This document shows, in pieces, positions 30,421-33,448 of a DNA stretch of 64,000 nt; positions within the stretch are counted from its first letter, which is position 1, and each line of letters opens with the position of its first letter. The translations under genes and the position numbers were made by a program. The DNA comes from Gemmatimonadaceae bacterium (lineage in GTDB: Bacteria; Gemmatimonadota; Gemmatimonadetes; Gemmatimonadales; Gemmatimonadaceae): NCBI GenBank assembly GCA_036496605.1, contig DASXKV010000011.1:1-64000 (forward strand). The letters run 5' to 3'. Under the pieces are notes generated by a model. It was not told where the DNA came from and made no database searches. It was given only the letters and a program-made list of their open reading frames with translations.

Positions 30421-31662
30421 ATGAAGCAGCTAAAGATTTCAAGCCACCGTGCCCTGCTCGTTGCTAGCGCTCTGATGTTGTTCTTTCCCCAACGACCACT
30501 CACCGCGCAAGGACCAGGTCTGTTCGACTTCTTTTTCGCGCGGAAGGACTCACCGACCGATCCTCTCTTCGCCGGCCTGAGCCTCACTGGCTACAGTGGT
30601 GTCTGGGGATTCCGAGTGGGCGGCGCACTCAACTTCAACAACGGCGACAACGGTTCCAGTCAGAACGACCCGTACAATTACCGCTGCGATCGATCTCAAT
30701 GTCGGTACTACGGCGGTCAGAGCTACGACTACGGCTATGGTTTGCCGATTGGCGTCAGCGGCTGGTCCGTCGACGCGGATCTGATTCTCGCTCCATTTCG
30801 CAATTTGCCAGTCGGTAAATCAATTCTGCTCGGCTTTTCGCCGTATGCCTTCGTCGGCATTGGCGGCGTGGGTGTGAGTCCCAACAATGCGCCCGACACG
30901 AGCCAGGCGACGTGGAGCTACGGAGTCGGCGTTCATCACGATGTGCTTGGCTGGCTCGGTCTGAGTGCGGAGGCGCGCAGCCGCAGGTCGTTACATAGCG
31001 ACAGCGTCATCGCAATTGGCTCGACACGCAATTGGGAATTCCGCGCGGGATTGTCGATCAGCTTCGGTGGACATCATGAAGAATCGGTCGCAACCACCGC
31101 GACCGGAGTCATCATGCCTATCGAGTCTGCGGAACTGGATCATTTCGAGACGGCGGAGTCGGCGGCACGAATTACTGCCCGAGTTCTCGATCGTGCAGAG
31201 GGTTTGGTGGAAACGCCGTACCTCCTGGGCGGGACGGATCCAAATACGGGATTTGACGCGGCGGGGTTCGTGCAGTACGTCTTTGCACAGGAAGGCGTGT
31301 CTTTGCCGCGCACGGCGCACGCGATGGCAGAACTGGGCGATGAAATCTCGACGCAAGCTGGTTCGCTGCGTCCTGGTGATTTGCTCTTCTTCGGCAACGA
31401 TGGAACCAACATCGATCACGTCGCGATCTTCGCCGGTCACGACCGAATCATTCACTCGACGGCGAGTGGAGGTGGCGTCCGCTACGACGTACTCGATGAA
31501 GGTCGGCGTGGCGAGTGGTTCTCGAACCATCTGATCATCGCGCGTCGAATCGTCGCCGAAGGCAAAGCACGGCCGCGCGTGCGGCAAGACGACTCGCGCG
31601 GCGAGGGCGAGCTCGATCCACCGGATCAGGCGCCGCGCTCCAATCGCTCGAGTGAAGAATAG
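30421..31662 (+). CDS. Outer-membrane-like beta-domain fused to an NlpC/P60 domain lacking the catalytic Cys
   Basis: 413-residue exported protein (signal peptide, cleavage region PLTAQG). Residues about 45-215 are Gly- and aromatic-rich beta-strands in an OmpA/OMP-beta-barrel pattern, ending GLSISFGG. Residues about 245-385 are an NlpC/P60 peptidase domain: GLVETPYLLGGTDPNTGFD, RPGDLLFFG, IDHVAIFAG with His333. In active enzymes the nucleophile is in D-C-S-G; here it reads D279-A-A-G282, so the Cys is replaced by Ala. The protein is therefore predicted to bind peptidoglycan without cutting it. The C-terminal 30 residues are charged and disordered. Followed 40 bp later by a PDZ gene. Confidence 0.87.
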   Translation: MKQLKISSHRALLVASALMLFFPQRPLTAQGPGLFDFFFARKDSPTDPLFAGLSLTGYSGVWGFRVGGALNFNNGDNGSSQNDPYNYRCDRSQCRYYGGQSYDYGYGLPIGVSGWSVDADLILAPFRNLPVGKSILLGFSPYAFVGIGGVGVSPNNAPDTSQATWSYGVGVHHDVLGWLGLSAEARSRRSLHSDSVIAIGSTRNWEFRAGLSISFGGHHEESVATTATGVIMPIESAELDHFETAESAARITARVLDRAEGLVETPYLLGGTDPNTGFDAAGFVQYVFAQEGVSLPRTAHAMAELGDEISTQAGSLRPGDLLFFGNDGTNIDHVAIFAGHDRIIHSTASGGGVRYDVLDEGRRGEWFSNHLIIARRIVAEGKARPRVRQDDSRGEGELDPPDQAPRSNRSSEE

Positions 31663-31702: not shown

Positions 31703-32740
31703 ATGAGAGGATACACAACATTGTTCGCCGCGGCGGTGCTCGCTCTGAGCACCGCCCCGTGCTCCGCGCACGCGCAATTTCGCCGCTTTCCGACTGATCA
31801 AGGATCGCCGCGGCGCACGAGCACGAACACGCCCAGCGACAACGATGCGCCTGATACGCGCACGTTGCTCGGCCTCACCCTCGGATCATCGGGCACCGAT
31901 CGCGACACCTTGGGTCTGCTCGTCACCCAAGTGATGCGCGACGGGCCCGCGGATCGCGCCGGCATCGATGAGGGGAATCGCCTCGCCGACATCGATGGCG
32001 TCAGCTTGCGGCTCGATCCGTCAGACATCGGCCGTACCGGCGCGGCCGACGCCGTGATGCGCCGGCTGAACCGCACGCTCAAAGGCTTGCGTGATGGCGA
32101 ACAGGCGACAATTCGTCTCTTCGGCGCCGGTCGCTTCAAAACCGTCACGGTCCAGGTGAGCCTACCAACGCCTAACGGTGGGATCACGGCGGCAACGCCG
32201 ATGGCGACTCCACCATCGGCTCCCACCGCCGTCGCCGTCGCCACCGATGCATCGACTCGCGCGAACACGGTGGCCACCGCGCTCCAGACGCTCGCCGATC
32301 TGCAGGCGCAGCTCCGGCGCATGTCCGACGACGAAGGCATGTCGCCGCTCGGCGACTCGCTCGCACAGTCGGCGCGCGATCTCGCCGCGATTCAGCGGCG
32401 GCTTCGTGCCGCGCAGGAGATGCGTCGTCGCAACGACGACGTCGGTGATCGCTCATCGACGCGCCGTGCTGGCAACGTCGACGTTCCCGGGCTCACGCTA
32501 AGCCCGGTGAGCGACGACCTCGCCGATTACTTCGGCGATGGCAGCGAGCGTGGCTTGCTCGTGCTACAGGCGGATGCCTCGTGGTCGCCAATTCGGAACG
32601 GCGACGTGCTCCTCAGCATCGATGGCGCGCCGGTGAGCGCCGATCGTCTGCGGGCCGCGTTGGAATCGCGTCAGCCCGCGCGCCTCGATTTGCTTCGTCG
32701 TCGCCGGCAGATGACCGTCACGCTAAACGGTCGCGAATAA
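31703..32740 (+). CDS. Exported protein with two PDZ domains
   Basis: 345-residue periplasmic protein starting at ATG 31703, 7 nt after AGGAAG, with a signal peptide (LFAAAVLALSTAPCSAHAQ). PDZ 1 spans about 45-155 (LGLTLGSS, GLLVTQVMRDGPADRAGIDEGNRL in pieces, IDGVSL). A middle helical region (about 190-260) contains the ALQTLADLQAQLRR and DLAAIQRRLRAAQE helices, possibly coiled coil. PDZ 2 spans about 275-345 (GLTLSPVSDDLADYFG, GLLVLQADA, GDVLLSIDGAPV). There is no protease domain, so it is a scaffold or adaptor. It sits between the NlpC-like gene and a small beta-barrel gene on the same strand. Confidence 0.88.
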   Translation: MRGYTTLFAAAVLALSTAPCSAHAQFRRFPTDQGSPRRTSTNTPSDNDAPDTRTLLGLTLGSSGTDRDTLGLLVTQVMRDGPADRAGIDEGNRLADIDGVSLRLDPSDIGRTGAADAVMRRLNRTLKGLRDGEQATIRLFGAGRFKTVTVQVSLPTPNGGITAATPMATPPSAPTAVAVATDASTRANTVATALQTLADLQAQLRRMSDDEGMSPLGDSLAQSARDLAAIQRRLRAAQEMRRRNDDVGDRSSTRRAGNVDVPGLTLSPVSDDLADYFGDGSERGLLVLQADASWSPIRNGDVLLSIDGAPVSADRLRAALESRQPARLDLLRRRRQMTVTLNGRE

Positions 32741-32860
32741 GTTCACGAAGGCGAGCACAACAGGACCGAACTGGAACGGGGAGTGCGAGAACGATGCGCC
32801 GACAACGTCGGCGCACCTGATCGCGCCCCGTTCTTCAATTCGACCCTCGGAGATCTGGCA

Positions 32861-33448
32861 ATGACCGCACGTCCCCGTCACCTCACGTTACGAACATTGC
32901 TTTCCATCAGTGGCTGTATTCTCGCGGCCGACATCACGTGTCCCAAGAACGTGCAAGCCCAGCTTCCGGGCTCCACGAGCTATTCGTTCACCGCCGCCGC
33001 CGGCCTCGCGGTGCCAACAGGTGACCTCTCGAACACAGTGAACTCGGGCTACAACGTCTCGGTCGCACTGGGAATGCATCAGGCGCTCACGCCCTTTAGC
33101 CTGCGCGTCGAGGGCAGCTTCACCGAGATGCCATGGAGCGACAACACAGGCGAGTCCGGCGCAAAACATCGCATCTTCGGACTCGCGCTCGACGGTCTCT
33201 TTAACGTCGGCACGCCGTCGACGAATGGGGGACTCTATCTCACGGGCGGTGTCGGGACGTACGGCACAAACGACGTGAACACCTTTTTCGGTGACACGAA
33301 TCGTGACTGGAATTTCGGCTTCAACGCGGGGCTCGGCTACTATCTCCCGCTCACCGGGTTCAGCGTGATCTTCGAAGGCCGCTACACGTACATCGGTAGC
33401 AACCCGAGTCAGAGTTTCTTTCCGATTACGGTTGGGGTGACGTTCTAG
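32861..33448 (+). CDS. Small outer-membrane beta-barrel protein
   Basis: 195 residues from the ATG at 32861, preceded by a GGAG ribosome-binding site. Signal peptide up to about residue 33 (NVQAQLPG). The mature part is a run of amphipathic strands with Gly turns (YSFTAAAGLAVPTGDLSN, GLYLTGGVGTYGT, NFGFNAGLGYYLPL) and a C-terminal strand ending VTF, the classical Bam-recognition aromatic end. Resembles OmpW/OmpX-size eight-stranded barrels. Function unknown. Last gene of the 30.4-33.4 kb envelope run; a palindromic segment follows. Confidence 0.85.
   Translation: MTARPRHLTLRTLLSISGCILAADITCPKNVQAQLPGSTSYSFTAAAGLAVPTGDLSNTVNSGYNVSVALGMHQALTPFSLRVEGSFTEMPWSDNTGESGAKHRIFGLALDGLFNVGTPSTNGGLYLTGGVGTYGTNDVNTFFGDTNRDWNFGFNAGLGYYLPLTGFSVIFEGRYTYIGSNPSQSFFPITVGVTF

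Follow-up and report, generated by a model that had tools for sequence, protein, structure and literature searches.

The window, i.e. the whole stretch of 64,000 nt analysed here (contig DASXKV010000011.1 of a Gemmatimonadaceae bacterium, a soil bacterium), carries a gene encoding a protein with an N-terminal domain modelled as a small outer membrane barrel and a C-terminal NlpC/P60 domain lacking the catalytic Cys. The start of a gene for a secreted PDZ protein lies 40 bases past its stop codon (Table 1). Full-length orthologues sharing 68-69% identity are encoded in two other genomes of the same genus. The protein belongs to the NlpC/P60 family (PF00877): its Pfam NLPC_P60 match at residues 265-362 (E 8.9e-23) scored 80.7 bits against a gathering cut-off of 23, and a sequence search matched this domain to 39 PDB chains. 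In the N-terminal part the match to OMP_b-brl (PF13505) was weak (E 0.002; 18.7 bits, below the cut-off of 28.7), and the OmpA C-terminal domain (PF00691) was not among the Pfam matches up to E 1. Cleavage of the putative signal peptide is suggested by the sequence near A29-Q30; both residues are invariant in the seven aligned members of the clade described below, and the structural model shows a helix at residues 8-20.

Table 1. Coordinates of the genes and protein features at the locus (window positions).
Feature	Position	Strand	Basis or remark
Barrel and Cys-less NlpC/P60 gene, 413 aa, ATG start, stop included	30421..31662	+	ORF list
Residues 1-29, N-terminal hydrophobic segment, putative Sec signal peptide	30421..30507	+	Sequence
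Residues 33-215, predicted OmpA/OprF-like 8-stranded barrel	30517..31065	+	AlphaFold2, VIA-align, Foldseek
C89-x4-C94, in the long loop joining strands 3 and 4	30685..30702	+	Invariant in 7/7 aligned clade members
Residues 216-246, fast-evolving linker	31066..31158	+	dN/dS 0.31-0.79 within genus
Residues 247-378, NlpC/P60 fold lacking the nucleophile Cys	31159..31554	+	Pfam, VIA-align
Y267-L268-L269, equivalents of YkfC Tyr226/Trp228, aromatic at 269 lost	31219..31227	+	Column counts
D279-A280-A281-G282, altered D-C-S-G, nucleophile and S1 serine both gone	31255..31266	+	
R297-T298-A299, equivalents of YkfC Arg255-Asp256-Ser257	31309..31317	+	Second carboxylate-binding Ser lost in 7/8
H333, catalytic His equivalent	31417..31419	+	Kept in 8/8 of clade
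H345, third triad residue equivalent	31453..31455	+	Kept in 8/8 of clade
C-terminal tail D-P-P-D-Q-A-P, family-wide motif	31615..31635	+	
Secreted PDZ protein gene, 345 aa, conserved partner	31703..32740	+	Pfam PDZ E 4.5e-9, two PDZ_6 stretches

The AlphaFold2 model, built from the window protein and four homologues, has a mean pLDDT of 57.7, with about 75-88 in the NlpC part and about 30-66 in the barrel. It shows eight long strands over residues 33-215 (33-42, 50-59, 62-73, 111-123, 139-148, 164-174, 179-190 and 205-215), followed by an NlpC fold at 238-376. Foldseek ranked NlpC/P60 enzymes first and then small outer membrane barrels (AlkL, E 3.2e-5; OmpX, E 4.2e-4; OmpA, E 4.9e-4). VIA-align superposed residues 29-216 on the barrels of OprF (4rlc; Z 15.4, rmsd 2.6 over 130 residues) and OmpA (1bxw; Z 14.5, rmsd 3.2 over 150 residues), and residues 247-378 on RipD (4jxb; Z 16.8, rmsd 1.6 over 117 residues), while 7cfl gave Z 20.6 with the NlpC part. 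The N-terminal region, taken for a barrel-like beta-domain in the preliminary description, is thus modelled as an 8-stranded barrel of the kind that heads OmpA family proteins, at moderate confidence and with the PF13505 match below its cut-off. The loops between strands 1-2, 3-4, 5-6 and 7-8 comprise 7, 37, 15 and 14 residues, and the turns between strands 2-3, 4-5 and 6-7 comprise 2, 15 and 4 residues. Such a pattern is usual for barrels whose N- and C-termini both face the periplasm, which implies that the NlpC domain should be periplasmic. Moreover, the final strand ends in G-L-S-I-S-F, which fits the outer membrane assembly signal G-x-x-hydrophobic-x-hydrophobic. Outer membrane location and a periplasmic NlpC domain are therefore what the model predicts. 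The C89/C94 pair in the predicted outer loop possibly forms a surface disulphide, and the linker following the barrel retains an identity of 0.37-0.50 within the genus (residues 217-246).

In the NlpC domain the motif region reads G277-F278-D279-A280-A281-G282, and H333 and H345 are intact. Direct reading and the Pfam match thus bear out the initial observation that D-C-S-G had been replaced while His333 and the surrounding fold were conserved. Since the four codons are GAC GCG GCG GGG and at least two base changes separate TGT or TGC from GCG, a single sequencing error is excluded as the cause. A substitute for the nucleophile close by was looked for: the only cysteines of the 413 aa protein are C89 and C94, both in the N-terminal part, so that there is no nearby Cys able to take over. 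Neither same-genus orthologue has an intact Cys, both reading DAAG.

To place this loss within the family, homologue searches covered 60 relatives, 179 genomes of the family, 395 of the phylum and 288 of the order; counts of Cys-containing proteins given here refer to the loci returned by these searches, i.e. the best 30 per search and not every match. Removal of duplicates and contained sequences before counting left 61 non-redundant homologues. Seventeen of these scored below 140 bits, all of them DCSG, and were left out of both the column counts and the tree, which comprised 44 rows with the motif columns removed. A profile of the clade matched in seven of the 288 order genomes at E 1e-90, with nine matches in total. 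Eight of the nine, from six genomes with four genus codes and two family codes, lack the Cys; the ninth (G004) is DCSG. Across these eight members position 280 is occupied by Ala (6), Ser (1) or Gly (1): DAAG in the window gene, in the two same-genus genomes and in G286 of another family, and DAPG in G032 and G126; a second paralogue present in the window genus reads DGAG and DSPG. The eight sequences form a single branch with bootstrap/SH-aLRT support of 100/100. One more row without the Cys, L050 (DAPG), is placed elsewhere, a one-clade topology being rejected (p-AU 1.3e-8), and the remaining 35 rows are all DCSG among the matches listed. This indicates that the Cys was lost anciently in one lineage and again in another. 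L050 and L140 (G146:C178) represent a Cys-less barrel-NlpC protein that groups among DCSG sequences and has no adjacent PDZ gene. Besides the gene studied here, the window genome encodes L001, a DCSG paralogue on contig 69, and L004 (G000:C33:103744-104955), a second Cys-less paralogue whose type (DGAG, DSPG) also occurs as L057 (G001:C88), in both cases without a PDZ gene behind. In a search of genome contigs a single query sequence gave no matches, and alignment A1 recovered four clade members and 41 matches confined to the NlpC domain. A phage or mobile origin was also considered and discarded: no relative was found in viral contigs, and the PHROG matches concerned only the NlpC domain of tail proteins.

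With Cys present in none of the eight clade members and both His in all of them, the triad of active C40 peptidases (Cys-His-His/polar) is incomplete throughout the clade, in agreement with the earlier view that the domain no longer cuts. Within the genus, dN/dS of the NlpC domain was about 0.11-0.21 in three pairs compared to 0.31-0.79 in the linker, i.e. the domain is under purifying selection; values for more distant pairs reached 0.55 (L009 and L036) and are less useful because dS saturates. The notion that the missing Cys reflects a sequencing error, or has only recently gone from a gene decaying into a pseudogene, could appeal to the draft state of the window genome (70 contigs). However, identical residues occur in independent assemblies and in two families, the codon is at least two changes away from Cys, and selection is maintained; we therefore consider this notion refuted by the Cys-less clade, with practically nothing left in its favour.

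According to the accessible part of PMC2954226, the structure of YkfC in complex with L-Ala-gamma-D-Glu shows contacts through Tyr226, Trp228, Asp237, Ser239 and Ser257, with Arg255 in the network. Mapped onto the alignment behind the 44-row tree, the equivalents of Tyr226, Trp228 (Tyr or Trp), Asp237, Ser239 and Arg255 are present in all 35 Cys-containing rows among the matches listed, and that of Ser257 in 30 of them. In the Cys-less clade, Asp237 is kept by all eight members and Tyr226 and Arg255 by six each, whereas Ser257 persists in one, and neither the aromatic residue (replaced by Leu in two, Thr in two, Ser in two, Phe in one and Gln in one) nor the S1 serine (Ala in five, Pro in three) persists in any. 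Hence, the S1 gamma-D-Glu site formed by Tyr226, Trp228, Asp237 and Ser239 is complete in no clade member. In L050, the independent loss, the Trp228 and Ser239 columns hold Arg and Pro, and Ser257 is kept. Among the columns invariant in the 35 Cys-containing rows listed (280 excluded), only 269 and 281 are kept by none of the eight; L050 differs at three such columns, these two included. The argument for decay of the pocket leans on these two columns, as a per-column Fisher test of the pocket against other conserved columns did not reach significance at any of three thresholds (p 0.061, 0.084 and 0.136), the columns being few. The preliminary description had the protein bind peptide stems or peptidoglycan and tether the wall to the outer membrane. 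A non-catalytic NlpC domain, predicted to be held in the periplasm by an outer membrane barrel, is supported, but since the residues that hold gamma-D-Glu were lost along with the Cys (Ser239, Trp228 and Ser257 equivalents in 8/8, 8/8 and 7/8), binding of stem peptides as proposed has become doubtful.

The PDZ protein has a clear N-terminal and a weaker C-terminal PDZ domain; two such stretches, counting PDZ_2 or PDZ_6, appeared in four of five PDZ protein tables, and Pfam reported no protease domain in these proteins. The gene lies directly downstream in all five testable clade loci of the DA[AP]G type (window, G001, G002, G032 and G286), which span two families, the contig of G126 ending at the corresponding position. 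In G032 and G286 it is the only neighbour shared with the window according to homology search, and here the barrel-NlpC and PDZ genes overlap by four bases (GTGA and ATGA, respectively), the usual sign of coupled translation. No PDZ gene directly follows L054 and L057 (DGAG/DSPG), L061 and L055 (DCSG), or L050 (L140). Relatives of the PDZ protein occur in 132 of the 179 family genomes at E 1e-6, and no barrel-NlpC gene was present in the stretches fetched around nine loci with the best non-adjacent matches. These widespread unpaired relatives imply that the pairing belongs to the DA[AP]G lineage and not to the PDZ family, and the idea of the PDZ protein as a dedicated partner everywhere was abandoned. 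A structural model of the partner (mean pLDDT 39.8, three sequences) was too poor for use; it is gene order that suggests contact between the two proteins. At three loci (L161, L162 and L163 in G133, G028 and G005), PDZ relatives adjoin a putative leucyl-tRNA synthetase gene recognised by eye. In the window, the PDZ gene is followed at 32783-33448 by a gene for a small outer membrane barrel protein (OMP_b-brl, E 1.7e-7), an order kept in the two same-genus genomes. Between 30200 and 32900 no promoter-like sites were found; there are three terminator-like sites, compared with 2.1 expected, and each of them lies on the minus strand.

Several known systems resemble parts of this arrangement. OmpA and OprF likewise have an N-terminal 8-stranded barrel followed by a periplasmic domain, which is however OmpA-C (PF00691) instead of NlpC/P60. 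The fold of the periplasmic domain is shared with MepS/Spr of E. coli (Foldseek E 1.1e-8), an active NlpC/P60 endopeptidase anchored as a lipoprotein. As the title of 8xud has it, the control system of MepS also includes a PDZ protein, the protease Prc, acting with NlpI; unlike Prc, the window PDZ protein has no protease domain in Pfam. Gemmatimonadota also have active barrel-NlpC proteins (e.g. L010, L015 and L001 of the same genome), which are homologous over most of their length but retain DCSG, the S1 serine and the aromatic residue (35/35 among the matches listed), and two of their loci (L061 and L055) have no PDZ gene downstream. Among LytM domains (EnvC, NlpD, DipM), the conversion of dead wall hydrolases into regulators of other enzymes is well established; these proteins share the inactive hydrolase domain but differ in fold (LytM/M23). 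DipM provides a precedent for a dead wall hydrolase domain that regulates via protein contact, as far as the available text of PMC10336132 shows.

The closest counterpart is RipD (Rv1566c) of M. tuberculosis, a secreted, non-catalytic NlpC/P60 protein in which the nucleophile Cys is likewise Ala, and whose fold agrees with the window domain at VIA-align Z 16.8-18.1. RipD lacks an outer membrane barrel, and the score against the RipD family model (NF033743) was 59.5 bits, below its cut-off of 215. In the portions of the literature available, the RipD triad is given as Ala83-Ser132-Glu144 with the His lost (PMC12067865), its non-catalytic core as binding peptidoglycan (PMC3987819, PMC12067865), and MAP1272c as ripD (PMC3987819). 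This orthologue (3gt2) reads GFDASG and LPRSS, i.e. both pocket serines are present, whereas the window clade kept both His and lost the serines and the aromatic residue. RipD and the window clade were thus disarmed in opposite ways, and wall binding by RipD is not simply transferable.

This opposition bears directly on the reading in which the dead domain binds the wall as in RipD and the barrel links the wall to the outer membrane, making the protein an OmpA analogue. The OmpA/OprF-like layout, the RipD-like fold, the peptidoglycan binding of RipD and the retained Tyr226 and Asp237 equivalents speak for it. Against it stand the loss of the gamma-D-Glu-contacting aromatic and serine residues, the retention of both serines in 3gt2 and the loss in RipD of the His that the clade retains. 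Furthermore, the genome already contains seven OmpA-C domain matches, so that a replacement tether is not obviously needed. Altogether we regard this reading as possible but less likely than the one favoured below, and wall tethering might involve another peptidoglycan-binding surface. A dead domain could also act as decoy or inhibitor, pairing or competing with active members of the barrel-NlpC family, for instance L001 (DCSG, contig 69). Consistent with this, active-type L001 and Cys-less L004 are encoded in the same genome; but the genes are not linked, the active paralogue lying on a different contig, and with the substrate-contact residues gone simple competition for substrate is unlikely, as is this reading as a whole.

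An even less probable explanation, which we rate as very remote, is a new catalytic or metal site formed by Asp279, His333, His345 and a gained Asp327. All four are invariant in the clade (8/8) and L050 (9/9), and Asp327 is otherwise found in only two of the 35 Cys-containing rows among the matches listed. However, Asp279 and both His are equally present in all 35 of these rows and may thus be retained for the fold, and Gly and Ser alternate with Ala at position 280. In addition, among 41 further, unrelated loci, partly retrieved with the pattern DLLFF.ND itself, 20 combine DCSG with this pattern, i.e. Asp at 327 alongside an intact motif, while one was a false regular expression match and 20 did not fit the expression. 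Asp at 327 therefore does not require loss of the Cys, and its interpretation as a compensating change was dropped.

The reading we favour over a tether gripping stem peptides, and give about an even chance of being correct, is an outer membrane-anchored, non-catalytic docking or scaffold module acting with the PDZ partner: the dead NlpC domain probably docks things rather than cuts them, and was retained, usually beside the partner gene. It draws on the clade-wide loss of the Cys, the loss of the pocket along with it, purifying selection, the recognised folds, the linkage to the PDZ gene and the DipM precedent. It is weakened by the Fisher test (p 0.06-0.14), by L054 and L057 lacking a PDZ neighbour, and by the many unpaired PDZ relatives. 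The protein would be exported via Sec, its OmpA-type 8-stranded barrel would insert in the outer membrane, and a flexible linker would hold the NlpC/P60 domain in the periplasm, where docking would take place. This domain would derive from the active barrel-NlpC endopeptidases of Gemmatimonadota, having shed the nucleophile and the part of the pocket that grips gamma-D-Glu while keeping the fold and Asp-His-His. Docking may then involve a surface outside the canonical substrate cleft and proceed jointly with the secreted PDZ protein encoded alongside, and may place or restrain cell envelope proteins, probably those of wall remodelling, at the outer membrane. A bolder version, in which NlpC/P60 became a docking domain for PDZ, Asp-His-His with Asp327 a new ligand or metal site, and such outer membrane adaptors arose by at least two independent conversions in Gemmatimonadota, seems improbable to us.

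In the literature searched, as far as it was available, RipD was the only precedent for a dead NlpC/P60 domain. A barrel fused to NlpC/P60, whether active or dead, was not found in that largely open-access literature, and the accessible part of a classification of papain-like proteinases (PMC10318531) mentions no such fusion. Attaching a dead NlpC domain to an OmpA-like barrel would represent a different route for positioning such a module at the outer membrane, in a phylum whose envelopes are little studied. Active and dead forms in one genome, together with at least two losses of the Cys, make the family a natural setting in which to compare which residues of the pocket disappear after catalysis has ceased.

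The DPPDxAP-type tail lies near the C-terminus in all eight Cys-less clade members and in 27 of the 35 Cys-containing relatives among the matches listed. It is common to active, dead and short barrel-less members of the family (L007, L008, L010, L012, L013, L015, L017 and others).
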